The notes under the pieces were generated by a model. That model saw only the letters and a list, made by a program, of their open reading frames with translations. It made no database searches and had not been told where the DNA came from. 64,000 bases of DNA from positions 4,807,501 to 4,871,500 of the forward strand of contig NZ_AP023360.1 in assembly GCF_018326265.1 (NCBI RefSeq), given 5' to 3'. The stretch comes from Catellatospora sp. IY07-71. GTDB taxonomy: Bacteria; Actinomycetota; Actinomycetes; Mycobacteriales; Micromonosporaceae. This document shows, one piece after another, positions 11,939 through 60,545 of this stretch. Position 1 is the stretch's first letter; every line of letters starts with the position of its first letter. The translations under genes were made by a program, and so were the position numbers.

Positions 11939-12104
11939 GGGTTTCCTTCGGTGAGAGGTGCGCGGCCACTGCACAGTAGGGCCATCCCGGCCGGGCGGCG
12001 GAGTCCGAGTCAGGACCACGACACTGTGATCAGCTTCGGCGGTCCGGTCGGTAGCCGGCCGTCCGGACGTTTGCGAATCGCCTGAATAGCCTGTTTTGCC
12101 ACTA

Positions 12105-12110
12105 TAGGGT
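12105..12110 (+). promoter_or_regulatory. -10 box, leaderless promoter
   Basis: TAGGGT (within TATAGGGT) followed by six bases and ATG 12117. The same geometry is seen for the divergent paralogue. Confidence 0.55.
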
Positions 12111-12116
12111 TACGTC

Positions 12117-13334
12117 ATGCGACAAAACGTGCGTCGTGGCGGATATGCCACAGCAACCACCTTGAGCGTGGCGACCGTGCTGGCAGCGGCATTGATGAGC
12201 GCGACCGGGCCGGCATCAGCCCGCACGGCGAGCCTCGCCAACCCGGTCGCCGGTGCGCTGGGGTTCAACGTGTTCGTGGCCGAGGACGCCTCGCTCGTCG
12301 ACAACTCATTCGAAGGTCCGCTGGCCGTCGGCGAGGACGTCACGCTGGCCGGTGACGTGTTCACGGTCGCGGTCACCACACCGGGCACCTTCCGGGTGGG
12401 TGCCGACGCGCTGCCCAGTGCCCTCGTCGTCGGCGGGGAGGTGGATTTCGCGGACAGCTCCGGCAGCGGGGTGCTGACCGTACCCACCGAGGGGTACGCG
12501 AAGATCGGCGACCTCGGCGACGCCACCGTGCACGTCACCGACGGCGGCGGCGAGCAGGCGAACACGCAGATCGTCGCCGAGGGCGCCGCCTACGGGAGCG
12601 CGCCGCGCGTGGAGCTGTCCGTGCGGCAGCCGGCGGCCTCGGTCGGGCCCGCCGCGCCGATCGACTTCGCGACGGCGTTCACGCAGTTCCGGGCCACCTC
12701 GGACGCGCTGTCGGCGTGCGGGGGCAACGTGATGCTCACCGACGCCACCGGGCTGCCGCTGCCGGAGTACCTGCCGCCGGGCACGCACGCGTACCTCTCG
12801 CTCACCCCGGGCGTGACCAACGTGCTCAACCTCGACCCGGAGCGGCTCGCGAACATCACGACGCTGACCTTCCAGCGCATCCCGACGCTGCCGCAGGCCG
12901 ACGCGCCCCTGCTGATCAACGTGGTGCTGCCCGCCGCGGGCACGGCGTACTCGTGGACCGTGCCGCAGCTCGACGGCGTCGGCACGGCGCAGGCGCCGTA
13001 CCTGCTGTGGAACTTCCCGAACGCGGTCGCGGTGGCCCAGGACCCCGGTTCGCACACCATGGTCGGCACGTTCCTCGGGCCGCGCGCGAACTTCATCGAC
13101 TTCAGCCCGGCCGCCAACGTCGGCCAGATCGTCAGCCGCCAGCTGGTGTACGGCGTGAACCAGGCGGGCGACCAGGACGCTGGGGAGGTGCACTACGCGC
13201 CGTTCGACGCGGAGCTGAGCTGCGCGGGTGGCCCGGGCACGCCCGGCCCGAGCGCGACGCCGAGCGCGACGCCGCAGCCGTCCGGGTCGCCGAGCGCCAG
13301 CCCGTACGGCGCCCCGCACCCGCCGCGCCCGTGA
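12117..13334 (+). CDS. Secreted choice-of-anchor A protein, short form
   Basis: 405 aa. Signal peptide with cleavage near GPASA, then the choice-of-anchor A domain from ALGFNVFVAEDASLVDNSFE to about residue 370. It is clearly paralogous to the protein at 8381-11137 (shared ALGFNVF, SALVVGG, PAAPIDFATAF-like and APYLLWNFP-like strings). The C-terminus is a Pro/Ser/Thr-rich tail with repeated SATP and GSPSASP, with no sortase motif. There is no ribosome binding site, and the -10 box lies 6 nt before ATG, so the mRNA is probably leaderless. The two paralogues are divergent, with the lipoprotein gene between them. A 54-bp palindrome follows 8 bp after the stop and may act as terminator. Confidence 0.8.
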   Translation: MRQNVRRGGYATATTLSVATVLAAALMSATGPASARTASLANPVAGALGFNVFVAEDASLVDNSFEGPLAVGEDVTLAGDVFTVAVTTPGTFRVGADALPSALVVGGEVDFADSSGSGVLTVPTEGYAKIGDLGDATVHVTDGGGEQANTQIVAEGAAYGSAPRVELSVRQPAASVGPAAPIDFATAFTQFRATSDALSACGGNVMLTDATGLPLPEYLPPGTHAYLSLTPGVTNVLNLDPERLANITTLTFQRIPTLPQADAPLLINVVLPAAGTAYSWTVPQLDGVGTAQAPYLLWNFPNAVAVAQDPGSHTMVGTFLGPRANFIDFSPAANVGQIVSRQLVYGVNQAGDQDAGEVHYAPFDAELSCAGGPGTPGPSATPSATPQPSGSPSASPYGAPHPPRP

Positions 13335-13342
13335 CCCTGCGG

Positions 13343-13396
13343 GTTAGGAAGGGCACCTTCTACATCGCAAAGCGATAAGAAGGTGCCCTTCCTTTC
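13343..13396. repeat. 54-bp palindromic element, copy 1
   Basis: 16-bp perfect inverted repeat AGGAAGGGCACCTTCT (13346-13361) with 13378-13393. The centre has its own small stem ATCGC-AAA-GCGAT. The element runs from GTT to TTTC and is 54 bp, the same as the copies at 24890 and 60492 but in the opposite orientation. Confidence 0.85.
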
Positions 13397-13425
13397 TGTT
13401 GGGGGGTACGGAGGGTGGGGTGGGG

Positions 13426-13471
13426 GTTCGTCGTTCGGGACGAACGCGGTGAGCTGGGCCGAACCTAGGGT
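13426..13471 (+). promoter_or_regulatory. Dyad operator plus leaderless -10 box
   Basis: GTTCGTC-N6-GACGAAC (13426-13445), then exactly 20 bp, then TAGGGT (13466-13471), then 6 nt to ATG 13478. With the transcript starting at the ATG, the dyad centre is at -42.5, the place used by class II activators. The same site with the same spacing precedes the PucR gene at 25415. Confidence 0.6.
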
Positions 13472-13477
13472 GTGCCC

Positions 13478-14857
13478 ATGTCGAAGCTGAGTGGGATCGA
13501 TGAGTGGCTGCAGCGGCGCCTGCCGGAGCTGGTGGCCGAGCATGGGGTGGGCGCGGCGGTGGCCGTGTCCGCCGGGGGCGAGGTCGTCGAGCACGCCGCG
13601 GGTGTGCTGAGCAAGGCGACCGGGGTCGAGGCGACGACGGACTCGGTGTTCCAGATCGGGTCCGTGACGAAGGTCTGGACGGTGACGCTGCTGATGCAGC
13701 TCGCCGACGAGGGCCTGCTCGACGTGGACGCGCCGGTGCGGCGCTACCTGCCGGAGTTCGCCATCGCCGACGAGGCGGCCGCGGCCGCGATCACGGTGCG
13801 GCAGCTGATGAACCACACCGCCGGGTTCGAGGGCGACATCTTCACCGACACCGGCCGCGGCGACGACTGCGTGGAGAAGTACGTCGCCACGCTCGGCGGC
13901 ACCGCGCAGCTGTTCCCGCCCGGCGCGCTGTTCTCCTACAACAACGCCGGGTACTGCGTGCTCGGGCGGATCGCCGAGGTGCTGCGCGGCAAGCCGTTCG
14001 ACGACTGCGTACGCGAGCACCTGTTCGCGCCGCTGGGCCTGGTGCACGCGGCCAACGGGCCGTACGAGGCGATCCTGCACCGGGCCGCGGTCGGGCACGT
14101 GCAGCCCGCGCCGGACGCCGAGCCGGTGCCCGCGCCGGTGTGGGCGCTGGCCCGGTCGAACTCCCCGGCCGGGGCGATGCTCACGATGAGCGCCCGCAGC
14201 CTGATCGCCTTCGCGCAGATGCACCTGAACGGCGGCCGCGCGGCCGACGGCACGGTGGTGCTCAGCGAGGCGAGCGTCGCCGCGATGCAGCAGCGGCAGG
14301 TCGACGTGCCGTGCGCCGGGCTGATGGGCGACGCCTGGGGCCTGGGCTGGGAGCTGTTCGACTGGGCGGGCGGTCCGGTCGTCGGCCACGACGGCAACAC
14401 CATCGGGCAGGCGTCGTTCCTGCGCGTGGTGCCGGGCACGGACGTCGCGGTGGCGCTGCTGACCAACGGCGGCAACCCGTTCGCGCTGTACGCCGAGATC
14501 TTCCGGCACGTGCTGCGGGAGCTGGCCGGGGTCGAGCTGCCCGCGCTGCCGGTGTTGCCCGCGCAGCCGCAGCCGGTGGACGGGGCGCGGTACGTCGGCA
14601 CGTACGCGTCCGAGGTGAACGAGCTGACCGTGAGCCAGGACGCCGACGGGCGGCTCTGGATGGACCTGGTCCCGCTGGGCCTGATGGCCGAGCTGGGCGG
14701 GCAGCCGGAGCGCACCGAGCTGGTGCACCTGCGCGGCGACATCTTCCTGCCCACGCAGGCGCAGCTGGGCATCCACCTGCCGCACGCGTTCGTCGGCGAC
14801 GACGGCGCCGGCAACGCCATGTACGTGCACAGCGGACGCGCGACCCGCCGGGTCTGA
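13478..14857 (+). CDS. Serine hydrolase, class C beta-lactamase/D-peptidase fold
   Basis: 459 aa with no clear signal peptide. Active-site motifs of the serine beta-lactamase-like family are present: SVTK (Ser62, Lys65), YNN in FSYNNAGY, and HDG in GHDGNTIGQ. Relatives include D-aminopeptidases, esterases and peptidases acting on D-residues, so a cytosolic peptidase or esterase role is likely rather than drug resistance. A beta-barrel-like C-terminal domain follows from about 360. The start is ATG 13478, with TAGGGT 6 nt upstream; the in-frame GTG at 13472 is less likely. The protein is very similar to the C-terminal half of the S9 fusion at 20766 (shared TTDSVFQIGS, DTGRGDDC and GHDGNTIGQ), so one arose by duplication. 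First gene of the peptide-use block. Confidence 0.85.
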   Translation: MSKLSGIDEWLQRRLPELVAEHGVGAAVAVSAGGEVVEHAAGVLSKATGVEATTDSVFQIGSVTKVWTVTLLMQLADEGLLDVDAPVRRYLPEFAIADEAAAAAITVRQLMNHTAGFEGDIFTDTGRGDDCVEKYVATLGGTAQLFPPGALFSYNNAGYCVLGRIAEVLRGKPFDDCVREHLFAPLGLVHAANGPYEAILHRAAVGHVQPAPDAEPVPAPVWALARSNSPAGAMLTMSARSLIAFAQMHLNGGRAADGTVVLSEASVAAMQQRQVDVPCAGLMGDAWGLGWELFDWAGGPVVGHDGNTIGQASFLRVVPGTDVAVALLTNGGNPFALYAEIFRHVLRELAGVELPALPVLPAQPQPVDGARYVGTYASEVNELTVSQDADGRLWMDLVPLGLMAELGGQPERTELVHLRGDIFLPTQAQLGIHLPHAFVGDDGAGNAMYVHSGRATRRV

Positions 14858-14978
14858 GCGTCCGGGTTCGGTGCGGCGTACGGAAGCGCCGCGGCGAACT
14901 CGTCATCCGGCACCAACACGCCAGCGCCCGGCTTGGGCAGGCTGCGCCCCACAGATCGTCCCCTCGGAGGCACCCACC

Positions 14979-16562
14979 ATGAGATCGATAGTCACAGTCA
15001 CGGCGGCCGGGGCGCTCGCGCTGACCCTGGCCGCGTGCGGCGGCACGGACAACCCCACGGGCGGCGACTCCTTCGCCGACGGCAAGACCTTCACGCTGGT
15101 GCTCAGCTCCGACCCGGGCACCCTCGACCCGCACTTCACCTCCATCTCGGTGGCGGGGCAGGTCGACCGCTTCCTGTACGACTCGCTGCTGAACCTCGAC
15201 GAGAAGGGCGCCGCGGTCGCGGGCCTGGCCGAGAAGTGGGAGTCGACCACCACGACCGCGAAGTACACCCTGCGCAAGGGCGTGACCTGCGCCGACGGCA
15301 CGCCGCTGACGGCCACCGACGTCGCCGCGAACATCACCTTCGTGGGCGACCCGAAGAACGCGTCCACCCGCCTCGGCGTCTACGTGCCGCCGGGCGCGAC
15401 CGCGGTCGGCGACGACGCGGCGGGCACGGTCACCGTCACCTCGCCCGCGCCGGACCCGTTCCTCGACCGCAACGTGGGCAGCCTGCACATCGTCTGCAAG
15501 AAGGGCATGGCCGCGCGCGACACGCTCAAGCAGGGCTCCGACGGCACCGGCATGTACACCATGACCGAGGCCGTCACCGGCGACCACTACACGCTGACCC
15601 GGCGCAAGGAGTACGCGTGGGGCCCCGGCGACTGGAAGGCCGACCAGCGCGGCCTGCCGGACAAGGTGGTGCTGCGGGTCGTCGGCAACGAGACCACCAC
15701 GGTCAACCTGCTGCTGTCCGGCGAGGTCAACGCGGCGATCGTGGTCGGGCCGGACCGGCAGCGGCTGCAGGCCGCCAAGCTGCACGAGCGGCCGACCGTC
15801 GCGCCGCTGGGCGAGCTGTGGTTCAACCAGAAGGCCGGCATGCCCGGCGCGGACGAGGCCGTGCGCCGCGCGCTGACCCAGGCGCTCAACCTGGACCAGC
15901 TCGGCCAGGTCGTGTCCAGCGGCAGTGGCAAGCGCTCGACCGGCCTGGTCTCGCTCGGCGGGCCGTGCGGGGACGGCAACGCGGTGTCCCTGCTGCCCGC
16001 GTTCGACGCGAACGCGGCCAAGGCCGGGCTCGACGCGGCGGGCTGGACCGCCGGGGCGGACGGCGTCCGGGTCAAGGACGGCAAGAAGCTGGCCGTGCTG
16101 TTCTACTTCCCGACCAGCGTCGGTCCCGGCATGCAGGCCGGCGCCGAGCTGCTGCAGAAGGAGTGGTCGGCGCTCGGTGTCGAGGTCACCCTCAAGGCCG
16201 TCACCGACGCCGAGATCGGGCAGCTCGTCGTCGGCGGGCAGGGCGCGTGGCAGGCGGCGTTCCTCCCGCTGGGCGTGCCGGTGCCGACCGCGCTGGTGGC
16301 GTTCCTGTCCGGGCCGAACCCGCCCAACGGCGTCAACCTGGCCTCGGTGAACAACGCCGAGTACGCGGCGCTGGCCAAGGAGGCGGCCGGGGTCCCCGGC
16401 ACGCAGGGCTGCCCGAAGTGGACCGCGGCCGAGGACGCGCTGTTCAAGAAGGTGGACATCGTGCCGTTCGTCGACTCGTCGATCCCCACCTTCGGCAAGG
16501 GCGCCACGTTCGAGCTGAGCCAGGGCGCGGTGATCCCGGGCTCGATCCGGATGCTCGCCTGA
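14979..16562 (+). CDS. Peptide ABC transporter substrate-binding lipoprotein
   Basis: 527 aa. The start is ATG 14979 with TCGGAGG 8 bp upstream. The signal peptide ends in the lipobox LAAC (Cys20). The body matches the SBP_bac_5 (DppA/OppA) family: LSSDPGTLDPHF at the start of the fold, then the DGTPLTATDV and GTGMYTM stretches. It should bind oligopeptides or similar solutes outside the membrane and deliver them to the permeases encoded next. A large hairpin lies in the 200-bp gap before the first permease gene. The gap upstream (14858-14978) shows no promoter that I can support, so read-through from the serine hydrolase gene is likely. Confidence 0.9.
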   Translation: MRSIVTVTAAGALALTLAACGGTDNPTGGDSFADGKTFTLVLSSDPGTLDPHFTSISVAGQVDRFLYDSLLNLDEKGAAVAGLAEKWESTTTTAKYTLRKGVTCADGTPLTATDVAANITFVGDPKNASTRLGVYVPPGATAVGDDAAGTVTVTSPAPDPFLDRNVGSLHIVCKKGMAARDTLKQGSDGTGMYTMTEAVTGDHYTLTRRKEYAWGPGDWKADQRGLPDKVVLRVVGNETTTVNLLLSGEVNAAIVVGPDRQRLQAAKLHERPTVAPLGELWFNQKAGMPGADEAVRRALTQALNLDQLGQVVSSGSGKRSTGLVSLGGPCGDGNAVSLLPAFDANAAKAGLDAAGWTAGADGVRVKDGKKLAVLFYFPTSVGPGMQAGAELLQKEWSALGVEVTLKAVTDAEIGQLVVGGQGAWQAAFLPLGVPVPTALVAFLSGPNPPNGVNLASVNNAEYAALAKEAAGVPGTQGCPKWTAAEDALFKKVDIVPFVDSSIPTFGKGATFELSQGAVIPGSIRMLA

Positions 16563-16578
16563 GCCGTCCCTGACAAAG

Positions 16579-16634
16579 GCGCCGAGCGCCGTACGACCCG
16601 CTTCGCACCGGCGGGCTCGTGCGGCGCTCGGCGC
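16579..16634 (+). terminator. Intercistronic hairpin, partial terminator or mRNA stabiliser
   Basis: An 18-bp stem (16579-16596 with 16617-16634, outer arm GCGCCGAGCGCCG, one G-U pair) with a smaller inner stem CCCG/CGGG. It lies between the binding-protein gene and the permease genes, a common way to give the binding protein higher expression than the membrane parts. Confidence 0.6.
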
Positions 16635-16761
16635 GTTCCGGGGCACGGTGATGGTGCGCGGGGACGAGGGGAGGGGGTGGGGCTTGTGCGGGCGTACCAA
16701 GACCGCAGGTCGGCCCGCCCGGCAGGATCGGTGCACCGAACCCGAGGATGTGACGGAGGCC

Positions 16762-17760
16762 ATGCCGGTGACCAGTGCGACCGCCCCGTCCGGCACGCTC
16801 GCGGCTCTCGCCGACAACGCCTGGCTGCGCTTCGCCGCGCGGCGGCTCGGCCGGCTGCTCGTCTCGGTGTGGGTGCTGCTCACCTTCGCCTTCCTGATGA
16901 TCCACCTGATTCCGGGCGATCCGGTCCGGGCCGCGCTGGGCGTCTCCGCGCCGGCTGAGCTGGTCGAGGCCCGCCGCGAGGCGCTGGGCCTGACCGACCC
17001 GCTGTGGCGGCAGTACGCCGACTACCTGCGCGGGCTGCTGCACGGCGACCTCGGCACCTCGATGCTGACCGGCATGCCGGTGTCGCAGACCATCGGCGAG
17101 CGGCTGCCCGCCACGGTCGAGCTGGCGGTGCTCGCGTTCGGGGGCGCGGCGCTGGTGTCGGTGCCGCTGGGGCTGCTCATGGCGGTGCTGACGCGCGGCG
17201 GGCGGCGGCGGCCGGTGGAGCTGGCGTTCACCTCGGGCAGCGTGGTGCTGGCCGTGGTGCCGGAGTTCCTGCTCGCGGTCGGCCTGGTGTACGTGTTCAG
17301 CGTCGAGCTGGGCTGGGCGCCGGTGGCGATGCGCCAGGGCGCGGACTCGTACGTGCTGCCGGTGCTGGCGCTCGCCGTCGGCCCGGCCGCGATCCTGGCC
17401 CGCATCCTGCGCGTGGAGACCCTCGGCGTGCTGCAGGCCGAGTACGTGCGCACCGCGCGGGCCAAGCGGCTGCCGGACCCGAAGGTGTACCTGCGGCACG
17501 TGCTGCCCAACGCGCTCACCGCGACGATCACCCTGGGCGGCCTGCTGCTCAGCACCATGGTCGCCGGGACGGTGCTGGTGGAGAACGTGTTCGCCTGGCC
17601 GGGCCTGGGCGGCACCATCGTCGGCTCGATCCTGGCCAAGGACTACCCGGTGGTGCAGGGCGTGGTGCTCGTCTACGGGCTGGGCGTGCTGCTGGTCAAC
17701 CTCCTGGTCGACGTGGCCCTGGCGCTGCTCGACCCGCGTTCGACGATCAGGGAGAGCTGA
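16762..17760 (+). CDS. Peptide ABC transporter permease (DppB type)
   Basis: 332 aa, about six membrane segments. The N-terminal part carries FAFLMIHLIPGDPVRAALG, typical of DppB/OppB permeases, and the EAA loop reads EYVRTARAKRLPDPKVYLRH. ATG 16762 is only 2 nt from GGAGG (16755-16759); the in-frame GTG 16768 has 8-nt spacing and may be the true start. The next gene begins 2 bp after the stop. It forms the membrane channel together with the permease half of the following fusion protein. Confidence 0.9.
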   Translation: MPVTSATAPSGTLAALADNAWLRFAARRLGRLLVSVWVLLTFAFLMIHLIPGDPVRAALGVSAPAELVEARREALGLTDPLWRQYADYLRGLLHGDLGTSMLTGMPVSQTIGERLPATVELAVLAFGGAALVSVPLGLLMAVLTRGGRRRPVELAFTSGSVVLAVVPEFLLAVGLVYVFSVELGWAPVAMRQGADSYVLPVLALAVGPAAILARILRVETLGVLQAEYVRTARAKRLPDPKVYLRHVLPNALTATITLGGLLLSTMVAGTVLVENVFAWPGLGGTIVGSILAKDYPVVQGVVLVYGLGVLLVNLLVDVALALLDPRSTIRES

Positions 17761-17762
17761 GA

Positions 17763-19682
17763 ATGACCTGGCGGGCGAGATGGCTCGGCGTGCTGCGTAC
17801 GCCGGTGGGCGCGAGCGCGGCGGCGCTGCTCGGCGCGGTGCTGCTGCTGGCGGTGCTGGCCCCGGTGCTGTGGGGCGCGCGGGCCGAGGCGATGGACACG
17901 GCGCAGATCCTGCGCCCCGCGTCGGGCGCCCACTGGGCGGGCACGGACGGGCTCGGCCGGGACATCTTCGCCCGGGTGCTGGTCGCGACGGGCACCTCGG
18001 TGCGGCTGGCGCTGGCCGCGACGGCGATCGCGGTAGCGGCCGGGTTGGTGCTGGGCACGGCGCCGCTGCTGCTCGGGGTGCGGCTGGGCCGCCTGGTCAC
18101 CGCGATCGTGCACATCGCGGTGGCGTTCCCCGGCATCCTGCTGGCGCTGTCGTTCGCGGTGGTGTTCGGCGCCGGTGCGCGCGGGGCGGTGCTGGCCATC
18201 GGCTTCGCGGGCGCGCCGTCGTTCGCGCGGCTCACCCAGACGCTGACCGCCGCGGTCGCCAACCGCGACTTCGTGGCCGCCGCGCGCATCGCCGGGGTCG
18301 GGCGGGTGCGGGTGCTGCTGCGCCACGTGCTGCCCAACGTCGGCGAGCCGCTGGTGGTGAACGCGACCATCGGCGCGGGCGGCGCGCTGCTGGCCTTCGC
18401 CGGGCTGTCCTTCCTCGGCCTGGGCGTGCAGGCGCCGGGGTACGACTGGGGCCGCCTGCTCGGCGAGGGCCTCAACGGCATCTACCTGAACCCGGCCGCG
18501 GCGCTGATCCCCGGTGCGGCGGTGGTGGTGGCCGGCCTGGCGTTCAACATGTTCGGCGAGGCGGTGGCCAAGGGGCTCGGCGTGCCCACCGCCGGGACGT
18601 TCCGGGGCCTCGGCCGCCGCGCCGAGCCCGCGCCCGCCGCGATCGCTCCCGCGCCGTCCGACGTGCTGCTCAACGTGGAGGAGCTGCGGGTCTCGTTCCC
18701 GGGCAAGGACGGTCCGGTCACGCCGGTGCGCGGGGTCAGCCTGACCGTACGCCGCGGCGAGACCGTCGGGATCGTGGGCGAGTCCGGTTCGGGCAAGAGC
18801 CTGACCGCGCTCGCGATCGCCCAGCTCATCGAGGAGCCGGGCCGGGTCGGCGCGCGGCGGCTGGACTTCCTCGGCGCGGACCTGCTCACCTCGTCGCCGC
18901 GTACGCTGCGGCGGCTGCTCGGCACCTCGCTGGCGATGGTGTTCCAGGACCCGGCGACCTCGTTCAACCCGACCCGGCGCATCGGCGCCCAGCTGGCCGA
19001 GGTCGCTCGCGAGCACCTGGGCGCGGGGCGGCGCGAAGCACAGGAGCGGGCCGTGGACCGGCTCCAGGCGGTGCACATCCCGGCGGCACGGCGGCGGGCG
19101 CGGCAGTTCCCGCACGAGTTCTCCGGCGGCATGCGGCAGCGGGCGATGATCGGCATGGGCCTGATGGGCAGCCCGCAGCTGATCATCGCGGACGAGCCGA
19201 CCACCGCGCTGGACGTGACCGTGCAGCAGCGGGTGCTGCGGCTGCTGGCCGAGCTGCGCGCCGCCGAGGGCGTGGCGATCCTGCTGATCAGCCATGACAT
19301 CGGCGTCATCGAGCAGGTGTGCGACCGGGTGCTCGTCATGTACGCCGGGCGCATCGTGGAGGACCTCCCGGCGGCCGAGCTGCGGAGCGCGGCGCGGCAC
19401 CCGTACACCCGGGCACTGCTCGCCGCCGTCCCCGACCTGGCCACCGACCGCGATCGGCCGCTGCCCGTCATCCCGGGGCGGCCCGCCGACCCGGCCGCGC
19501 CGCCGCCCGGCTGCGCGTTCGCGCCGCGCTGCCCGCTCGCCGACGACCGCTGCCGGGCCGACGACCCGGCGCTGGTCACCGACGCTGCCGGCCGCCGAGT
19601 GGCCTGCTGGCACGCCGACCGACCCTTCCCACCGAGCGACTACGCAGCCGTGGTCACCGCTGGACCGGAGCACGCAGCATGA
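17763..19682 (+). CDS. Fused peptide ABC permease (DppC) and ATPase (DppD)
   Basis: 639 aa. Residues about 1-285 are a DppC-like permease: HWAGTDGLGRDIFARVL is the family signature, and the EAA loop is near NRDFVAAARIAGVGRVRVL. After a Pro/Ala linker (about 285-300) comes a complete ATPase: Walker A GESGSGKS, signature FSGGMRQR, Walker B LIIADEPTTALD, and the C-terminal OppD/DppD cysteine region (CAFAPRCPLADDRC). GGAG lies 8 nt before ATG 17763. Such fusions occur in actinobacteria. The stop overlaps the start of the second ATPase gene by 4 bp. Confidence 0.9.
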   Translation: MTWRARWLGVLRTPVGASAAALLGAVLLLAVLAPVLWGARAEAMDTAQILRPASGAHWAGTDGLGRDIFARVLVATGTSVRLALAATAIAVAAGLVLGTAPLLLGVRLGRLVTAIVHIAVAFPGILLALSFAVVFGAGARGAVLAIGFAGAPSFARLTQTLTAAVANRDFVAAARIAGVGRVRVLLRHVLPNVGEPLVVNATIGAGGALLAFAGLSFLGLGVQAPGYDWGRLLGEGLNGIYLNPAAALIPGAAVVVAGLAFNMFGEAVAKGLGVPTAGTFRGLGRRAEPAPAAIAPAPSDVLLNVEELRVSFPGKDGPVTPVRGVSLTVRRGETVGIVGESGSGKSLTALAIAQLIEEPGRVGARRLDFLGADLLTSSPRTLRRLLGTSLAMVFQDPATSFNPTRRIGAQLAEVAREHLGAGRREAQERAVDRLQAVHIPAARRRARQFPHEFSGGMRQRAMIGMGLMGSPQLIIADEPTTALDVTVQQRVLRLLAELRAAEGVAILLISHDIGVIEQVCDRVLVMYAGRIVEDLPAAELRSAARHPYTRALLAAVPDLATDRDRPLPVIPGRPADPAAPPPGCAFAPRCPLADDRCRADDPALVTDAAGRRVACWHADRPFPPSDYAAVVTAGPEHAA

Positions 19683-20653
19683 GTGAGCTGACCTTCGAGA
19701 ACGTCTCTGTGCGGTACGGCACCGGGCGGCGGGCGCTGACCGCCGTCGAGGACGTCGACCTGACCGTGCCGGCCGGTTCGGTGGTGGGACTGGTCGGCGA
19801 GTCCGGGTCCGGCAAGTCTTCGCTGGCCCGTGCCGCCGTCGGGCTGCACCCGGTGAGCGCCGGGCGGATCCTGCTGGACGGGCGGCCGCTGCGCCGCGAC
19901 GGCCGGGTGGGACGGCGGCGGCCCTTGCAGATGGTGTTCCAGGACCCGTACTCCTCACTCGACCCGCGCATGACCATCGGTGCGTCGATCGCCGAGGCGC
20001 TGCCACGTGAGGTGGCACGTGGCTCGGCGGCGCGTCGCGACGAGGTGGCGCGGCTGCTGGGGCTGGTGGACCTGGGCGCGGAGCGGGCGGTGAGCTATCC
20101 GGGGCAGCTGTCCGGCGGGCAGCGGCAGCGGGTCGCGCTGGCCCGTGCCCTCGCCGGGCGGCCCGACGTGGTCATCGCCGACGAGATCACCTCGGCACTG
20201 GACGTGTCCATCCAGGGCACCGTGCTGAACCTGGTACGCGACCTGCAGCGGCGGCTGCGGCTGTCGATGCTGTTCATCTCGCACGACCTGGCCGTGGTGC
20301 GCTACGTCGCCGACCACGTCGCCGTCATGTACCTGGGCCGCATCGTCGAGTTCGGGCCCGCGGAGCAGGTGCTGGGGGATCCGCGGCATCCGTACACCCG
20401 GGAGCTGCTCGCCGCCGCCGGCCGCGGCGCCGGGGCGGTCCTGCCCGCCGCGGTCGCCGACGCGGAACCGGCCGACCCGCATCACCCGCCGCCCGGCTGC
20501 CGCTTCCACCCGCGCTGCCCCGTCGGGCCGCTGGTCCATGCCGACCGCACGATCTGCCGCGAGCGCGAACCAGCCCCGACCGGCGACCGGCACCGGACCG
20601 CCTGCCATTTCGTGCCCGGCGGCGTGGGCGACCCGACCGGCAGCGTCGGCTGA
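19679..20653 (+). CDS. Peptide ABC transporter ATPase (DppF type)
   Basis: 324 aa. Starts at ATG 19679 overlapping the previous stop (ATGA). Complete ATPase: Walker A GESGSGKSS, Q-loop QMVFQDPYSSLDPR typical of OppF/DppF, signature LSGGQRQR, Walker B VVIADEITSALD, and the C-terminal CRFHPRCPVGP cysteine motif. It should pair with the ATPase half of the upstream fusion to drive uptake. The 112-bp gap to the S9 gene shows no terminator, so the operon probably continues. Confidence 0.9.
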   Translation: MSELTFENVSVRYGTGRRALTAVEDVDLTVPAGSVVGLVGESGSGKSSLARAAVGLHPVSAGRILLDGRPLRRDGRVGRRRPLQMVFQDPYSSLDPRMTIGASIAEALPREVARGSAARRDEVARLLGLVDLGAERAVSYPGQLSGGQRQRVALARALAGRPDVVIADEITSALDVSIQGTVLNLVRDLQRRLRLSMLFISHDLAVVRYVADHVAVMYLGRIVEFGPAEQVLGDPRHPYTRELLAAAGRGAGAVLPAAVADAEPADPHHPPPGCRFHPRCPVGPLVHADRTICREREPAPTGDRHRTACHFVPGGVGDPTGSVG

Positions 20654-20765
20654 CCTGAACTGCTGCTGCCCGCACCAGCACGACACCCGCGCTCGGCAGG
20701 CGCGAGGTGACCCGAACACGACCTGCCGACGAGACGATCAGAAGACCTGAGCGAGGGAGAAGCCG

Positions 20766-23700
20766 GTGACCAACCGCCAGCGCATCGACGACCTGACCAG
20801 CTTCGCGGTGCCCGAGCAGCCCGCGCTGTCGCCCGACGGCGGCTCGATCCTGTACGTGCTGCGTACGGCCGACGCCGCGGGCGACCGGAACCTGCGCTCG
20901 ATCTGGCGGGTGGACGCCCGCGACGGCGACGCCGTGCAGCTCACCCGCGGTAAGGCCGACGTCGCCCCGGCCTGGTCGCCCGACGGCGCACGGGTGGCGT
21001 TCCTGCGCGCCCAGGACGGCCCGGCCCAGCTGTGGCTGCTCCCCGCCGCCGGCGGCGAGGCCGAGCAACTGACCACGCTGCCGCTCGGCGCGGGCGCGCC
21101 GGTGTGGAGCCCCGACGGCACGAAGATCGCCTTCGCGTCGGCCGTCGACATCACGGCGGACGCGGGGGAGGACGACGCCGCGCGCACCCGCCGGGGCAGG
21201 GCGCCGATCGTCACCGAGCGCGTCGACTACCAGGCCGACGGCGCGGGGCTGCTGCGCGGCATGCGCAAGCACCTGCACGTGCTCGACCTGGCCAGCCGCC
21301 AGGTGCGCCAGGTGACCGAGGGCGACTGGCACGCCGGTGACCCGTCGTGGTCACCCGACGGCACCAGGCTCGCCTTCGGCGCGGGCACCGCCGCCGACGC
21401 CGACCTGAACATCCGGGTGCCGCTGCACGTGCTCGACCTGAGCGACCCCGCCGCCCGCCCGACCCAGGTCGGACTGCCCGACGGGGTCGCCGGGCCCGCG
21501 ATCTGGACCGCGGACGGGGAGTCGCTGCTGGTCGTAGGCACGGTGGCGGGCCCGACCGGGCATGCCGGGCTGCTGCGGCTGCCGCTTTCCGGCGGCGAGC
21601 CGGTGAACCTGGCCGCCTCGCTCGACCGCAATGTGATGGCGGGCGGTCCCGGCTACCCGGGGGCGGCCCCGCGCCTGGTCGACGGCGGGCGCACCGTGCT
21701 GTTCTGCGCCCGCGACCGGGGCTGCACCCACCTCTACGCGGTCGGCGTGGACGGCGGCGACCCGCGTCTGGTCGTCGGCGGCGCGGGGCGGGTCGTCTCC
21801 GGCCTCTCCGTCGCCGGTGACACCGCCGTGCTCGCGCTGGCCACGCCGGAGTCGTACGGCGAGATCGTGGCCGTGGACCTGGCGGCCGGGACCGAGACCG
21901 TGCGCACCCAGCATGGGCCCGACCTGTCCGGCCTGTTCCCGCGGCAGGAGCGCGAGTTCGCGATCTCCGACGGCACGGTGGTGCACGGCTGGCTGATCCG
22001 CGACGACAGCGTCACCGGTCCGCGGCCGCTGCTGCTGGACATCCACGGCGGCCCGCACAACGCGTGGAACGGCGCGGCCGACGAGATCCACCTCTACCAC
22101 CAGGAGCTGGCCGCGCGCGGCTGGGCGGTGCTGCTGCTCAACCCGCGGGCCAGCGACGGCTACGGCGCCGAGTTCTTCGACGCGGCGATCGGCGCCTGGG
22201 GCGACGGCGACGCCCGCGACTTCCTGGAGCCGCTGGACCAGCTCGTGGCGGAGGGCGTGGCCGACCCGGACCGGCTCGCGGTCACGGGCTACAGCTACGG
22301 CGGATTCATGACCTGCTACCTGACCAGCCGCGACGGCCGGTTCGCGGCGGCCGTCGCCGGGGGCGTGGTCGCCGACCTCGACAGCATGGCGGGCACCTCC
22401 GACGCCGGCCACTTCCTGGCGGTGCACGAGCTGGGCGGCCAGCCGTGGGGCGACACCGAGCGGTACGCGGCGATGTCGCCGTACGCGCGAGTGGACCAGG
22501 TGCGTACGCCGACCTTGGTCATCCACGGGGCGGCCGACGTGCGCTGCCCGATCGGGCAGGCCCAGCAGTGGCACGCCGCGCTGCGGGCGCAGGGGGTGCC
22601 GACCGAGCTGGTGCTCTACCCGGACGGCTCGCACCTGTTCATCCTCGACGGGCCGCCGTCGCACCGTGTCGACTTCAACCGGCGCGTGGTCGACTGGGTC
22701 GAGACGTATGCCGCGGGCGTCCGCCGGGCCGTGGACGGCGCGCACTGGCAGCGGCGCCTGGCGGTGCTCGCCGCCAGGCACGGGGTCACCGGCGCGGCGC
22801 TGGGCATCCTGCGCGTGGGCGCGGACGGGCGGCCCGACGAGCTGGCCGAGGCCGCGTACGGCCTGCTCAACATCGACAGCGGCGTGACGGCGACCACCGA
22901 CAGCGTGTTCCAGATCGGGTCGATCTCCAAGGTGTGGACCGCGACCGTGGTGCAGCAGCTCGTCGAGGAGGGCCTGCTCGACCTCGACGCGCCGGTCGCG
23001 CAGGTGCTGCCCGAGCTGCGCCTGTCCGACCCGGACGTGACCAAGCAGGTCACCATGCGGCACCTGCTCACCCACACCAGCGGCATCGACGGCGACGTGT
23101 TCACCGACACCGGGCGCGGCGACGACTGCCTGGAGAGGTACACGGCGCTGCTGGCCGAGGTGGCGCAGAACCACCCGCTCGGCGCGACCTGGTCCTACTG
23201 CAACTCCGGCTTCTCGCTGGCCGGGTACGTCATCGAGAAGATCACCGGGCTCACCTGGGACGCGGCGATGCGGCAGCGGCTGTTCACGCCGCTGGGGCTG
23301 GCCCGCACCGGCACCCTGCCCGAGGACGCGCTGCTGCACCGGGCCGCGGTCGGCCACGTCGACGGGCCGGACGGGCAGCGCATGCGGGCACCGGTCTGGG
23401 GCCTGCCGCGCGCGGTCGGCCCGGCCGGGCTGATCAGCGCGCCCGTCGCCGACGTCCTCGCCTTCGCCCGGCTGCACCTGACCGGCGGCCTGGCCGCCGA
23501 CGGCACCCGGCTGCTCAGCGAGCAGGGCGTGGCCGCGATGGCGGACAAGCACGCCGACCTGCCGGACAAGCACTCCCTCGGCGACTCGTGGGGTCTGGGC
23601 TGGATCCGCTACGGCTGGGACGGGCGGCGGCTGATCGGCCACGACGGCAACACCATCGGGCAGGGCGCGTTCCTGCGGCTGCTGCCCGAGCAGGGGCTGG

Positions 23701-24101
23701 CCGTCACGCTGCTCACCAACGGCGGCAAGTCGCGCGACCTGTACGAGGACCTGTACCGGGAGATCTTCGCCGAGCTGGCGGGGGTGGACATGCCACGCAC
23801 GCTCACCCCGCCTCCGACGCCGGTCACCGCCGACCTCGGCCCGCATCTGGGCACGTACGAGCGCGCCGGGTCGCGGATGGAGGTGCTCGACGGCGGCACG
23901 CTGCGCATCACGGTCACCGGGCCGCTGGCCGAGCTGAGCCCGAACCCGACCCAGGAGTTCCCGATGACGCCCCTGCGCGACGACCTCTACCTGGTGCGGA
24001 TGCCCGGCCAGCAGACGTACATCCCGGTGACCTTCTACGCGCTGCCCACCGGCGAGCGGTACCTGCACTTCGGCGCGCGCGCCACCCCTAAGGTCGGCTG
24101 A
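20766..24101 (+). CDS. Fusion: S9 prolyl-oligopeptidase-type peptidase plus serine beta-lactamase-fold hydrolase
   Basis: 1111 aa, two catalytic units in one frame. Residues about 1-370 contain WD40/PD40-like beta-propeller repeats (LSPDG, WSPDGA, WSPDGT). Residues about 385-650 are an S9 alpha/beta-hydrolase with Ser510 in GYSYGGF, Asp591 in AADVRC and His623 in DGSHLF. Residues about 660-1110 are a class C beta-lactamase-like domain with SISK (Ser719, Lys722), YCN and HDG, close to the protein at 13478. GTG 20766 has GGGAG 6 nt upstream. No signal peptide is seen, so it should cut imported oligopeptides in the cytosol. The M20 gene overlaps its stop. The frame is continuous through the junction, so a sequencing frameshift is not suggested. 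Confidence 0.88.
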   Translation: MTNRQRIDDLTSFAVPEQPALSPDGGSILYVLRTADAAGDRNLRSIWRVDARDGDAVQLTRGKADVAPAWSPDGARVAFLRAQDGPAQLWLLPAAGGEAEQLTTLPLGAGAPVWSPDGTKIAFASAVDITADAGEDDAARTRRGRAPIVTERVDYQADGAGLLRGMRKHLHVLDLASRQVRQVTEGDWHAGDPSWSPDGTRLAFGAGTAADADLNIRVPLHVLDLSDPAARPTQVGLPDGVAGPAIWTADGESLLVVGTVAGPTGHAGLLRLPLSGGEPVNLAASLDRNVMAGGPGYPGAAPRLVDGGRTVLFCARDRGCTHLYAVGVDGGDPRLVVGGAGRVVSGLSVAGDTAVLALATPESYGEIVAVDLAAGTETVRTQHGPDLSGLFPRQEREFAISDGTVVHGWLIRDDSVTGPRPLLLDIHGGPHNAWNGAADEIHLYHQELAARGWAVLLLNPRASDGYGAEFFDAAIGAWGDGDARDFLEPLDQLVAEGVADPDRLAVTGYSYGGFMTCYLTSRDGRFAAAVAGGVVADLDSMAGTSDAGHFLAVHELGGQPWGDTERYAAMSPYARVDQVRTPTLVIHGAADVRCPIGQAQQWHAALRAQGVPTELVLYPDGSHLFILDGPPSHRVDFNRRVVDWVETYAAGVRRAVDGAHWQRRLAVLAARHGVTGAALGILRVGADGRPDELAEAAYGLLNIDSGVTATTDSVFQIGSISKVWTATVVQQLVEEGLLDLDAPVAQVLPELRLSDPDVTKQVTMRHLLTHTSGIDGDVFTDTGRGDDCLERYTALLAEVAQNHPLGATWSYCNSGFSLAGYVIEKITGLTWDAAMRQRLFTPLGLARTGTLPEDALLHRAAVGHVDGPDGQRMRAPVWGLPRAVGPAGLISAPVADVLAFARLHLTGGLAADGTRLLSEQGVAAMADKHADLPDKHSLGDSWGLGWIRYGWDGRRLIGHDGNTIGQGAFLRLLPEQGLAVTLLTNGGKSRDLYEDLYREIFAELAGVDMPRTLTPPPTPVTADLGPHLGTYERAGSRMEVLDGGTLRITVTGPLAELSPNPTQEFPMTPLRDDLYLVRMPGQQTYIPVTFYALPTGERYLHFGARATPKVG

Positions 24102-25252
24102 TGACGATCGAAGCGATGACCGCGGCGCTGCCCGTCCTGCTGTCCGACATCGAGGAGCTGGTCACCTGCGAATCCCCGTCGCAGGACCTGGCCGCGGTGG
24201 CGCGCAGCGCCGAGGTCGTGGCCCGGCTCGGCGCCCGCCGCCTGGGCGCCGAGCCGGAACGGATTGTGCTCGACGGGCGTACGCACCTGCGCTGGCGCTT
24301 CGGCACCGGGCCGACACGGGTGCTGCTGCTCGGCCACCACGACACGGTGTGGCCGCTGGGCTCGCTGGCCACCCACCCGTTCTCGGTGGACGGCGGCGTG
24401 CTGCGCGGTCCGGGCTGCTTCGACATGAAGGCCGGCCTGGCCATGATCTTCCACGCGGTCGCCGCCCTGCCGTCGCGGGACGGCGTGACGATCCTGGTCA
24501 ACGGCGACGAGGAACTCGGCTCGCCCAGCTCCCGCGGCCTCATCGAGACCGAGGCGACCGGCTGCGCGGCGGCCCTGGTCCTGGAGGCCTCCGCCACCGG
24601 CGGCGCCCTGAAGACCGAACGCAAGGGCGTCTCCCTCTACCGCGTCCGCGTCACCGGCCGCGCCGCCCACGCGGGCCTCGAACCCGAACGCGGCGTCAAC
24701 GCCACGATCGAGCTGGCCCGCCAGGTCCTCGCCGTCGCCGCCCTCGCCGACCCCGACCAGGGCACCACCGTCACCCCCACCCTCATGTCCGCCGGCACCA
24801 CCACCAACACCGTCCCCGCCCTCGGCGAGTTCGCCGTCGACGTCCGCGTACGCACCGTCGCCGAACAAACCCGCATCCACACCGCCCTAGAAAGGAAGGG
24901 CACCCTCTTATCGTTTTCCGATGTAGAAGGTGCCCTTCCTAACCAGGCCGGGGTTGAGGTGCTCGGGGGGCCGAACCGGCCGCCGCTGGACGGGGCGTCG
25001 TCGGCCGGGCTCTACACCCGCGCCCAGAAACTCGCCGCCGAGCTGGGACTGCCGCCGCTGACCTGCACGGCGGTCGGCGGGGCGTCGGACGGCAACTTCA
25101 CCGCCGGGGTCGGCACGCCCACCCTGGACGGGCTGGGCGCGGTCGGCGGCGGCGCGCACGCCGACGACGAGCACGTCCTGATCGACGCCCTCCCCGGCCG
25201 GACAGCCCTGCTCGCCGCCTTGATCGCCGACCTCCTCCCCGGCGGCCGCTAG
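24101..25252 (+). CDS. M20-family metallopeptidase carrying an in-frame palindrome insertion
   Basis: 383 aa. ATG 24101 overlaps the previous stop. Metal ligands of the M20 (ArgE/CPG2) family are visible: HHDT, GCFDMKAG, the catalytic pair in NGDEELGS and the last His in GAHADDEHV. It should release terminal residues from peptides or acyl-amino acids. Residues about 264-281 come from a 54-bp palindromic element also found at 13343 and 60492. It lies between HTAL and AGVEVLGGPNRPP, in the region joining the lid to the catalytic domain, and keeps the frame. Whether the enzyme still folds is unknown. The TAG stop directly abuts a second palindrome. Confidence 0.85.
   Translation: MTIEAMTAALPVLLSDIEELVTCESPSQDLAAVARSAEVVARLGARRLGAEPERIVLDGRTHLRWRFGTGPTRVLLLGHHDTVWPLGSLATHPFSVDGGVLRGPGCFDMKAGLAMIFHAVAALPSRDGVTILVNGDEELGSPSSRGLIETEATGCAAALVLEASATGGALKTERKGVSLYRVRVTGRAAHAGLEPERGVNATIELARQVLAVAALADPDQGTTVTPTLMSAGTTTNTVPALGEFAVDVRVRTVAEQTRIHTALERKGTLLSFSDVEGALPNQAGVEVLGGPNRPPLDGASSAGLYTRAQKLAAELGLPPLTCTAVGGASDGNFTAGVGTPTLDGLGAVGGGAHADDEHVLIDALPGRTALLAALIADLLPGGR
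24890..24943. repeat. 54-bp palindromic element, copy 2, inside a coding region
   Basis: AGGAAGGGCACCCTCT (24893-24908) pairs with 24925-24940 with one mismatch; inner stem ATCG/CGAT. Its 54 bp equal 18 codons, so the M20 frame is preserved. Confidence 0.85.
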
Positions 25253-25326
25253 ATCGTTCGACTTGCCAGGCACATGGGCGAAAGCGCGCTCAAGATACGC
25301 CCGGGTGCCTGGCAAGTCGGACGATC
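25252..25326. repeat. Second palindrome family, copy A
   Basis: Arms of 29 bp (from GATCGTTCGACTTGCCAGG at 25252, and its complement ending at 25326) match with three mismatches around a 17-bp centre. It starts on the last base of the M20 stop codon. A related copy lies at 61437-61524. It may end transcription before the PucR gene. Confidence 0.8.
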
Positions 25327-25362
25327 ATGAGGTTGGTGCGCGGCGACGAAGCGGAGGGGTGG

Positions 25363-25408
25363 TCTCGTCGGGCGGGACGAACTAGGGTGGCCGTCCTGCT
25401 CCTATGTT
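25363..25408 (+). promoter_or_regulatory. Dyad operator plus leaderless -10 box of the PucR gene
   Basis: TCTCGTC-N6-GACGAAC (25363-25382), 20 bp, TATGTT (25403-25408), 6 nt, GTG 25415. Spacing and right arm equal those before the serine hydrolase at 13478. A TAGGGT at 25383-25388 could be an alternative -10 box. Confidence 0.6.
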
Positions 25409-25414
25409 CGGACG

Positions 25415-27082
25415 GTGCTGACCACGGTGAAGGCGAATCTGCGCTCCCAGGCGACCCTCGGCCGCGTGCTCGACGATCTCGGCGCGACCCTGCTCGAACT
25501 CGTGCACGGCGAGCCGGACGCGGCCGGTGACATCGGCGGCGTGGCCATCCACGATCCGCTGGAGGAGCCGGTGCTGCCCCAGCGCGCGCTGGTGCTCGGC
25601 GTCGGGCTGCGCGAACCCGCCGAGATCGCGCGGCTGCTGCGTACGCTCGCCGCGCAGGGGGCCGCCGGGCTGGTGCTGCGGGCACCGGTGCCGCGCGACG
25701 CGGAGCTGGCGCGGGCCGCCGCCGAGTCGGGCGTCGCCGTGCTCGCGCTGACCCGCGGCGCGTCCTGGGCGCAGCTCGCCGCGCTGCTGCGGGCGCTGCT
25801 GGCCGAGGGCGACGTCGGCGACGCCGGGCCGCAGACCATCGGCGGTATGCCGTCCGGCGACCTGTTCGCCCTGGCCAACGCGGTCGGCGCGCTGCTCGAC
25901 GCACCGGTGACCATCGAGGACCGCAGCTCACGGGTGCTGGCCTTCTCCGGCCGCCAGGACGAGGCCGACCCGTCCCGGGTCGAGACCATCCTGGGCCGCC
26001 AGGTGCCCGAGCAGTATTCCCGCCTGCTCACCGAGCGCGGCGTGTTCCGCGACCTCTACCGCAGCGACGAGCCGGTGTTCGTCGAGCCGCCGGGCTCGCC
26101 GGGCGGGTTCACCGTGCCGCGGGTCGCGGTGGCGGTGCGCGCCGGGGACGAGGTGCTCGGCTCGATCTGGGCGGCGGTGCGCGAGCCGCTCAGCCCCGAG
26201 CGCAGCCAGGCGCTGCGGGACGCGGCCCGGCTGGTGGCGCTGCACATGCTGCGCATCCGGGCCGGTGCCGACGTGGAGCGCCGGCTGCGCGCAGACCTGC
26301 TGAGCACCGCGCTGGAGGGCGGCGCCGGGGCGCGCGAGGCGCTGCACCGGCTGGGCCTGGCCGACCAGCCCGTGGTGGTGCTGGCGCTGGCCACGCTGCG
26401 CGCCGACCGGGGCGAGTCGCTGGGTACGGACGTCAACCTGGCCACCGAACGCCAGCGCCTGGCCGACGGCCTGGCCATGCACCTGACCGCGGTGCATCCC
26501 CGCTGCGTCGCGGCCCTGGTCGGCGATGTGGCGTACGGCCTGATCCCGGTCGCGCGGGAGGGCGACGGCGAGCAGCGCGCGCTGCGCATCGCCACGGACT
26601 TCCTGGACCGGGTCGGCGACCGGGTGCGCGCGGTGATCGGGATCGGCTCGGTGGCGGCCGACGCGGGCGGCCTGGCCGAGGCGCGCGCGGGCGCCGACCG
26701 GGCGCTGCGGGTGCTGCGCTCCGGCTCGGCCGGCGGCGGGCACCGGGTGGCCCGGCTGTCGGACGTGCACGTCGAGTCGCTGCTGCTGGAGCTGCGCGAC
26801 CTGGTCGCGGCGCGGGGGGACCGGCCGACCGGGCCGGTGGCGCGGCTGTTCGCGTACGACGAGCAGCACAACGCGAACCTCGTGGACACGCTGCGGGCGT
26901 GGCTGGACGCGTTCGGCGACGTGATCGCGGCCTCGGCGGCGATGTACGTGCACCCGAACACGTTCCGCTACCGGCTGCGCCGCCTGGCCGAGGTCGGCGG
27001 CATCGACCTCACCGACCCCGAGGCCCGCTTCGCCGCGATGCTCCAGCTCCGCGTCCTCCCGCCCGGTAGCCGCCCCGCCTAG
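25415..27082 (+). CDS. PucR-family transcriptional regulator
   Basis: 555 aa. The N-terminal part is a PucR-type sensory region, the middle a GGDEF-like/CdaR-type domain, and the C-terminus (about 490-545) the PucR C-terminal helix-turn-helix with MYVHPNTFRYRLRRL. Family members control use of purines, amino acids, polyamines or peptides. GTG 25415 follows a -10 box by 6 nt and has no ribosome binding site, so the mRNA is probably leaderless. It lies at the end of the peptide-use block and shares an operator-like dyad with the first gene of that block, which makes self-control and control of the block likely (inference). Ligand unknown. Confidence 0.88.
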   Translation: MLTTVKANLRSQATLGRVLDDLGATLLELVHGEPDAAGDIGGVAIHDPLEEPVLPQRALVLGVGLREPAEIARLLRTLAAQGAAGLVLRAPVPRDAELARAAAESGVAVLALTRGASWAQLAALLRALLAEGDVGDAGPQTIGGMPSGDLFALANAVGALLDAPVTIEDRSSRVLAFSGRQDEADPSRVETILGRQVPEQYSRLLTERGVFRDLYRSDEPVFVEPPGSPGGFTVPRVAVAVRAGDEVLGSIWAAVREPLSPERSQALRDAARLVALHMLRIRAGADVERRLRADLLSTALEGGAGAREALHRLGLADQPVVVLALATLRADRGESLGTDVNLATERQRLADGLAMHLTAVHPRCVAALVGDVAYGLIPVAREGDGEQRALRIATDFLDRVGDRVRAVIGIGSVAADAGGLAEARAGADRALRVLRSGSAGGGHRVARLSDVHVESLLLELRDLVAARGDRPTGPVARLFAYDEQHNANLVDTLRAWLDAFGDVIAASAAMYVHPNTFRYRLRRLAEVGGIDLTDPEARFAAMLQLRVLPPGSRPA

Positions 27083-57182: not shown

Positions 57183-57890
57183 ATGGGCCAGGCGTACGCG
57201 GTCACCGCCGAGTTCTACGACCTCCTGCAGGCTGCCGAGCAACTCGGGGTGACCGAGCGCCTGCTGGACCGCTGGCTCGGGCGACCGGAGGTCGGCGTGC
57301 TCGACGTGGGCGCGGGCACCGGGCTGGCCACCGCCAGGCTCGCCGCCCGGTGCGCGGTGCTGGTGCACGCGGTGGAACCCGCGGCCGGGATGCGGGCGGT
57401 GCTGCTCAGCCGGCTCGCCGGGCAGCCCGACCTGCTGGCCCGGGTGCGGGTGCACGCCCGCGGAGTGCAGGAGCTGGGGCTGCGCGATGTCGCCGACTTC
57501 GGGTGGTGCCTCAACACGATGGCCGGCCTGGACGCCGCCGACCGGGCCGGGGCGCTGGCCGCGCTGGCTGAGGCGCTGGTGCCGGGCGGGCGCCTGGTCG
57601 TACAGCGCCCGCCCGCCGAAGCCGCCGACTCCCGCCGGGACCTGCCGTCCTGGCGGCTCGGCGGCGATCTCTACACCGGCGAGGTGACCACGGTCCGCAC
57701 CGGGCCGCGCGGGGTGCGCTGGCGGTTCGACTACCGGGTCAGCCGCGACGGGGCGCTGGTGCGGGAGGCGTCCGAGGTGTTCGACGGCCACCTGGCCAGC
57801 GAGCCCGAGTTCGACGCCGAGCTGGCCGCCGCCGGGTTCACCGCGGTCGCCGCCGACACGCCCGGAATCGTCATCGCCCGGCGTCGTTAA
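57183..57890 (+). CDS. SAM-dependent methyltransferase
   Basis: 235 aa, class I Rossmann fold. Motif I is LDVGAGTGLATA, the acidic residue after strand 2 is in HAVEPAAG, and a late motif is LVPGGRLVVQRP. The substrate is not evident. The stop codon TAA, rare in such G+C-rich genes, is supplied by a repeat (CGTTAAGAAGG) that begins before the stop, so the C-terminus may have been trimmed by that insertion. Confidence 0.83.
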   Translation: MGQAYAVTAEFYDLLQAAEQLGVTERLLDRWLGRPEVGVLDVGAGTGLATARLAARCAVLVHAVEPAAGMRAVLLSRLAGQPDLLARVRVHARGVQELGLRDVADFGWCLNTMAGLDAADRAGALAALAEALVPGGRLVVQRPPAEAADSRRDLPSWRLGGDLYTGEVTTVRTGPRGVRWRFDYRVSRDGALVREASEVFDGHLASEPEFDAELAAAGFTAVAADTPGIVIARRR

Positions 57891-57936
57891 GAAGGTGCCC
57901 TTCCTCTACGTAATGCGTTAAGAAGGTGCCCTTCCT
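57885..57936. repeat. Tandem half-copies of the 54-bp palindrome core
   Basis: Two direct 21-bp copies (57885-57905 and 57916-57936), beginning CGTTAAGAAGGTGCCCTTCC, separated by 10 bp. Each contains the outer arm of the 54-bp element. They sit between the convergent methyltransferase and VOC genes and touch both stop codons. Confidence 0.85.
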
Positions 57937-57937
57937 T

Positions 57938-58684
57938 CTACCAGGTGAGGATGCCGAACTGGCCGCCCTGGGGGTCGGTGAGGATGGCCAGCCGGCCGTC
58001 GGGGTAGTCGCCGCGCATCAGCTGCACCGCGCCCAGCTCGATCGCCCGGTCCGCGCTCGCGTCGGCGTCGGCGACCCCGAAGTACGGCATCCAGTGCGGG
58101 GGCATACCGGCCGAACCCGGCGGGTCGAACACGCCGCCGATCGGCTGGCCGGCCACCGACAGCGTCGTGTACACCTCGCCGCCCAGGTCGCGGTCCTCGT
58201 GGCTCATCGCGAAGACCGCGCCGTAGAACTCCTTCGCCCCGGCCGGGTCCGGCGTGTACAGCTCGACCCAGCTCAGGGCACCGGGCTCGCGCATGATGCC
58301 GACGCCGTCGTGGGTGCCCGCCTGCCAGGTGGAGAAGAACGCCCCGGCCGGGTCGGTGAAGACGGCCAGGGTGCCCTGGTCCATCACCGCGTCCGGCGGC
58401 ACGATCACCTTGCCGCCGCTCGCCTCGATCCGGCCCGCGGTGGCCGCCGAGTCCTCCGTGCCGAAGTAGACCGCCCAGGACGTGCCCCGGGCGGCGTCGG
58501 TGGCCGGCCCGATCCCGGCGGCCATCTTCCCGTCCTTGGTGAAGAAGCCGTAGCCGCCCGCCTCCGGGCCGAGATCCTGGTGCTCCCAGCCGAACAGCGC
58601 GCTGTAGAACGCCACCGCACCTGCTATGTCGGTCGTGCCGAGGTCCACCCATCGCGGGGCGCCCGGCTGATGTGTCAGCGTCAT
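57938..58684 (-). CDS. VOC-family protein with two glyoxalase-like domains
   Basis: 248 aa, two tandem vicinal-oxygen-chelate domains (about 8-122 and 132-248). Each begins with a W-V-x-L strand (PRWVDLGTTDIAGAVAFY; LSWVELYTPDPAGAKEFY) and contains AVFTDPAGAFF or AILTDPQGGQF near the end. Metal ligands of true glyoxalases are only partly present, so a binding or resistance role is as likely as catalysis. ATG 58684 gives the complete first domain. Confidence 0.85.
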   Translation of the reverse strand: MTLTHQPGAPRWVDLGTTDIAGAVAFYSALFGWEHQDLGPEAGGYGFFTKDGKMAAGIGPATDAARGTSWAVYFGTEDSAATAGRIEASGGKVIVPPDAVMDQGTLAVFTDPAGAFFSTWQAGTHDGVGIMREPGALSWVELYTPDPAGAKEFYGAVFAMSHEDRDLGGEVYTTLSVAGQPIGGVFDPPGSAGMPPHWMPYFGVADADASADRAIELGAVQLMRGDYPDGRLAILTDPQGGQFGILTW

Positions 58685-60491: not shown

Positions 60492-60545
60492 GAAAGGAAG
60501 GGCACCTTCTTATCGTTTTCCGTAGTAGAAGGTGCCCTTCCTAAC
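60492..60545. repeat. 54-bp palindromic element, copy 3
   Basis: Perfect 16-bp arms AGGAAGGGCACCTTCT (60495-60510) and 60527-60542, same orientation as the copy in the M20 gene. A further partial core GGTGCCCTTC follows at 60548. Confidence 0.85.

Follow-up and report, generated by a model that had tools for sequence, protein, structure and literature searches.

A REP-like palindromic repeat family of Catellatospora with a copy in frame in an M20 peptidase gene

Palindromic elements which are inserted in frame into unrelated protein genes, and leave these genes functional, have been described as the Rickettsia palindromic elements, RPEs (PMC10969869; PMC3733652). Another kind of palindromes, the REPs, are present in high copy number at gene 3′ ends and in the space separating convergent genes, where they sometimes provide the stop codon, and some of them are intragenic and encode 20–30 residues (PMC3733652). 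As in-frame palindromes are known both from the RPEs and from the intragenic REPs, the class itself is not new. Rickettsia is the best-known case of in-frame palindromic insertions, while the elements analyzed here form a family of many copies in a soil actinomycete that is free-living and GC-rich, and in which several proteins can be compared with and without the inserted peptide across species, which makes the cost or benefit of the insertion directly testable.

The window, which is the whole 64,000-nucleotide stretch of Catellatospora sp. IY07-71 DNA that was analyzed, contains a 54-bp palindromic element at 24890–24943 (plus strand), and the element is located inside the open frame 24101–25252 of a peptidase, as stated in the original prediction. 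The left arm, GGAAGGGCACCCTCT (24894–24908, plus strand), has one mismatch to the family consensus, and the right arm (24925–24939, minus strand) has the reverse complement GGAAGGGCACCTTCT. In the translation of the frame the element encodes ERKGTLLSFSDVEGALPN, flanked by HTAL and QAGVEVLGGPNRPP, and its end1 (GAAAGGAAGG) faces the N-terminal half of the protein. The RNA of this copy was predicted to fold with an energy of −35 kcal/mol (z −6.7), and no strong T tract was seen at this copy. Besides the M20 copy, the window contains three further full copies: an intergenic copy in the hairpin form (13343–13396, minus strand), a hairpin-form copy immediately 3′ of a stop codon (60492–60545, plus strand), and a direct-arm copy between convergent gene ends, which provides the TAA stop of the upstream gene (57886–57939, minus strand). 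The direct-arm and hairpin forms differ chiefly in one arm, the short core of which is GCA versus TGC. A terminator scan of 12000–26500 flagged solely an inner part of the copy at 13343; the hairpin of the M20 copy is a strong one.

The intergenic copies in the window, together with hundreds of matches in the genome, bear out the earlier claim that the element occurs elsewhere as an intergenic repeat. In the genome, which is a single contig of 8.6 Mb, GGAAGGGCACCNTCT is matched 199 times in forward and 198 times in reverse orientation, while the reversed-pattern control gave 0. There are at least 174 full elements in the hairpin form and at least 43 in the direct-arm form, and about 165 of the at least 217 full elements, picked by pattern matches, were examined. 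Exact 15-mers were found 47 to 394 times in 10 of 11 Catellatospora genomes (394 in this genome), and a single time in the remaining one. In a second genus of the same bacterial family some genomes contain up to 17 exact 15-mers, and the copies that were read in them belong to a related variant whose cores are of the GGGCCC type; the exact hairpin pattern had zero matches in this genus, because the arms differ there. The element was not matched in plasmids, phages, or viral contigs, and the arm sequence had no occurrence in a bacterial context in the literature searched. A replichore strand bias of the copies was considered and rejected as an artefact of the listing, in which forward places come first.

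The family is similar to the REPs of the GTAG and CGTC types in that it is a short, high-copy palindrome located mostly outside genes near their 3′ ends. It differs from them by having two arms whose starts are at a fixed distance of 31 bp in the full copies, and the GTAG sequence of the former type is here a common internal feature preceding the second arm, and is not located at the outer ends of the element. An associated RAYT (Y1) transposase, as known for REPs of the GTAG type, is not evident for the Catellatospora family: this genome has one Y1 transposase gene (PF01797), and none was detected in four repeat-rich relatives. The relative C. bangladeshensis has 366 sites and no detected Y1 transposase. 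With the RPEs the family shares the in-frame insertion into protein genes that stay open, but the RPEs described in the cited work are about 150 bp long versus 54 bp here, the two are likened by description, and the copies in the GC-rich, free-living actinomycete are mostly extragenic, at gene 3′ ends. The hairpin form has inverted arms, as a MITE would have; filled and empty helicase and FdhD sites are without a clean duplication, because their loops have diverged as well. The copies also resemble intrinsic terminators in forming stable, sense-oriented hairpins directly past stop codons, and differ from them in that they are near-identical and dispersed, have a weak T tract, and occur also in the middle of genes.

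To describe the location of the copies, genes were called with a simple codon-usage script, which was also used below for the in-frame copies and for the skew of genes close to end1 or end2. In a first sample of 92 copies, taken from blocks which were 89% coding, 42 were flanked by convergent gene ends, and 6 were within called genes. Of 87 oriented copies, 72 had end1 pointing toward the 3′ end of a gene, and 62 of these 72 were in the range from −18 to +11 nt relative to the stop codon. Most copies were found 0–11 nt past stop codons in the sense orientation, and at tandem-gene sites 33 copies were in sense versus 5 in antisense orientation (p 4e-6). This placement suggests a role at transcript 3′ ends, where the strong hairpin of the copies behind stop codons would probably act as a 3′-end element. 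The comparison with C. bangladeshensis showed that most sites are common to both genomes, and that the centres differ at 41 of 256 positions, while the flanks differ at about 5%; these counts leave out the pair at 2161351, where mismatched neighbouring elements inflated the centre divergence to 0.202. At one orthologous site an ordinary hairpin is present where two elements stand otherwise. Since no recent insertion with exact borders or a target duplication was found, the copying of the element is deduced from distribution and phylogeny.

The gene at 24101–25252 (plus strand) encodes a 383-aa protein which matches Peptidase_M20 (E 1.9e-23) and M20_dimer (Pfam PF01546 and PF07687), and for which 1cg2, the structure of carboxypeptidase G2, was the best match both by sequence and by fold. 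Its nearest relative is the gene of C. bangladeshensis (96%). The interval from EQ to GGPNRPP (EQ included) consists of 34, 34, 38, 38, and 49 residues in five Catellatospora species, while it is exactly 24 residues long in 31 of 31 aligned homologues that are free of the element (28 of them from other genera and 3 from other Catellatospora, of which one is from the genome G016). This difference in aligned lengths shows that the M20 element is an insertion made in the common ancestor of the five species. The original prediction held that 18 codons were added without a frameshift; the 54 bp are indeed in frame, but the alignment with the insert-free orthologues shows that about 8 original residues were lost as 18 codons came in, so the net gain here is 10 residues and not 18. 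It had also named orthologues from distant genera carrying the same residues without the palindrome as the finding that would speak against it, and the element residues were absent from all 31 aligned homologues.

Among the five species the length differences of the M20 copy are all multiples of three, and a perfect or near-perfect hairpin is present in four of them. In C. paridis the left arm is altered and the copy belongs to a longer subtype with GSRQRDEQQLG inside, the DNA of which was also found elsewhere in 9 of 11 genomes of the genus. This longer subtype, with an inner palindrome coding for GSRQRDEQ.L, was noted at L359, L362, L363 (FdhD), L386 (helicase), and L115 (M20), and it occupies the same coding sites in some species only. 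A conserved ERKG motif was also noticed elsewhere in the M20 protein, outside the element.

To see how the insertion could affect the protein, its structure was predicted with AlphaFold (36 sequences), as had been proposed for the locus. The mean pLDDT was 90.6, but residues 267–280, located in the dimerisation or lid domain between a helix (253–264) and a strand (284–293), had values below 50, which places the insert in a predicted disordered loop. Residues 79, 81, 108, 137, 138, 162, and 353, which by alignment would be the metal ligands and catalytic acids of this family, are invariant in all 36 M20 sequences. Together with the fold, these putative metal-site and catalytic residues are consistent with a peptidase of the carboxypeptidase G2 type. 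Outside the element dN/dS is about 0.29 between this genome and C. sichuanensis. The arms have 0–1 changes across 33 sites where about 5 were expected, in comparisons that are not independent, while the 7-codon centre of the insert is near saturation between clades and has one change versus C. bangladeshensis. The conservation of the arms hints at a constraint, which is suggestive only, and could reflect selection on the M20 hairpin. The earlier suggestion that the insertion may have changed the enzyme is not supported, because the insert is predicted to be disordered, the putative catalytic residues have been retained, and the dN/dS is close to 0.3. The word domesticated is likewise not supported for a predicted disordered peptide with a centre that varies freely between species; the data fit a tolerated, still-translated insertion.

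The M20 copy is not special, as at least four further genes of this genome contain the element in frame, and their proteins apparently still work. Of the 165 full copies examined, 5 besides M20 can be read throughout in the same sense frame and are preceded by sequence that looks coding. They are located in genes for a GH42-like enzyme, FdhD, a peptidase-like fusion, a DEAD/DEAH helicase, and a membrane protein, in which the element starts the C-terminal tail; these five names come from sequence inspection and not from a family search. Within the genus, seven genomes have the element in the helicase loop and three have an empty loop, and the counts are the same for FdhD, which is independent evidence for the earlier claim that the element moves or is copied. 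A clean target duplication was not seen when filled and empty helicase and FdhD sites were compared, because the loops have diverged too. In GH42 the element is read in the ERKG frame in two genomes and in the EGRAPS frame in six, and three genomes are free of it. The EGRAPS peptides were considered as products of antisense copies, which was rejected, as the DNA is in the same strand and orientation and only the reading frame is different. The three forward frames are unequal, with one being open in 82% of the copies and the others in 10% and 4%, so the frame shared by the in-frame copies is at least partly a survivor effect. The in-frame copies were found among 5 of 47 direct-arm versus 1 of 118 hairpin-form elements (Fisher p 0.0075), an excess on which we place little weight, as hairpin-form copies are present in the GH42 genes of other species.

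The sequence facing end1 of the element has an unusual composition. In the M20 gene it is a tract at 24590–24889 (plus strand) with an excess of C over G in third codon positions. The strand read toward end1 is generally G-poor and C-rich, with a skew of −0.35 in the first 50 nt that fades over about 300 bp, and it also contains more A than T, while the end2 side is without such a tract genome-wide. The final 153 nt of genes facing end1 at a distance of up to 30 bp had a third-position skew of −0.51 (n=87), versus −0.13 for genes similarly close to end2 (n=25) and −0.15 for element-free genes (n=501). Averaged over the five M20 carriers, the third-position skew was −0.75 in one 153-nt bin and −0.58 in the next, compared to −0.11 and −0.03 in the same bins of 31 non-carriers, most of which are from other genera. 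The same was seen within the genus for GH42, with −0.39 to −0.76 in carriers and −0.09 to −0.28 in non-carriers. The contrast was weak in the helicase and FdhD, because the element-free genomes are skewed there too, which could reflect a past loss of the element or a skew that was there before it. It is possible, even if we lean slightly against it, that the element imprints or requires a directional asymmetry of about 300 bp at end1, with G to C and T to A changes on the sense strand, which would be alike for intragenic copies and for those behind genes. If the element causes the tract, the tract would be a footprint of copying or of a strand-biased process triggered by the element.

These data make it very probable that a copy of the REP-like family entered the M20 gene in an ancestor of at least five species, and that it is a tolerated disordered peptide for which no new enzyme function is needed. 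The element at 24890–24943 is one copy of the palindromic repeat family of Catellatospora, which came into the lid-domain loop in the one forward frame left open by most copies, and persisted there with its arms nearly unchanged and its centre variable; at least four more proteins of this genome would owe their copies to the same process. The near-identity of the arms, which have changed less than the rest of the M20 gene, could be read differently, namely that the hairpin is kept as an intragenic attenuator, in which slow translation would lead to folding and then to a stop of transcription, so that the element would be regulatory rather than merely tolerated. The perfect or near-perfect hairpin in four of five species, with its predicted −35 kcal/mol here, would agree with this, as would the upstream C-rich, G-poor tract, which is expected of Rho loading. 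However, this tract also adjoins direct-arm copies, most other in-frame copies of this genome have the weaker direct-arm form, the M20 copy is without a strong T tract, and C. paridis has an altered left arm and an inserted subtype, which makes attenuation an unlikely explanation.

Less likely still is that the 18 residues took on a role in the enzyme, such as substrate access or partner binding, and are held by selection at the protein level. All five species with this gene retained the insert, and its arm residues ERKG and EGALPN are conserved; however, the same peptide is present in unrelated proteins, and so the conservation of the arms is expected from the DNA family alone, while the predicted disorder of the insert and the near-saturated replacement of its 7-codon centre between clades also argue against such a role. 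That the residues are ancestral to the protein family, and the dispersed copies derived from the M20 gene or arose by chance, is hardly credible given the 24-residue interval shared by all 31 element-free homologues and the several hundred near-identical copies at unrelated sites. Hence, the tolerated insertion of a REP-like copy is the reading we prefer. As far as our searches reach, the family in actinobacteria, the way in which one and the same protein loop is filled by differing subtypes or in differing frames from species to species, and the directional tract seem to be new, and the tract offers a handle on the spread or action of REP-like elements without an evident transposase.

Other repeats were also noticed in the window. 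A second palindrome family (GATCGTN..ACTTGCC.GGCA..TGGGCG) is located at 25253–25327, directly 3′ of the M20 stop codon, and again at 61438–61524; it has 4 arm matches in the window versus 0.02 expected, and 33 distinct arm matches in a sampled 1.4 Mb, with 0 in the control. The region 8475–10045 contains four to five tandem repeats of 330 bp, which are 60–81% alike and apparently encode a repeat-domain protein. The stretches 13791–14541 and 23050–23794, about 9.3 kb apart, are 71–76% alike, and the latter is located within the C-terminal part of the long gene just upstream of M20.
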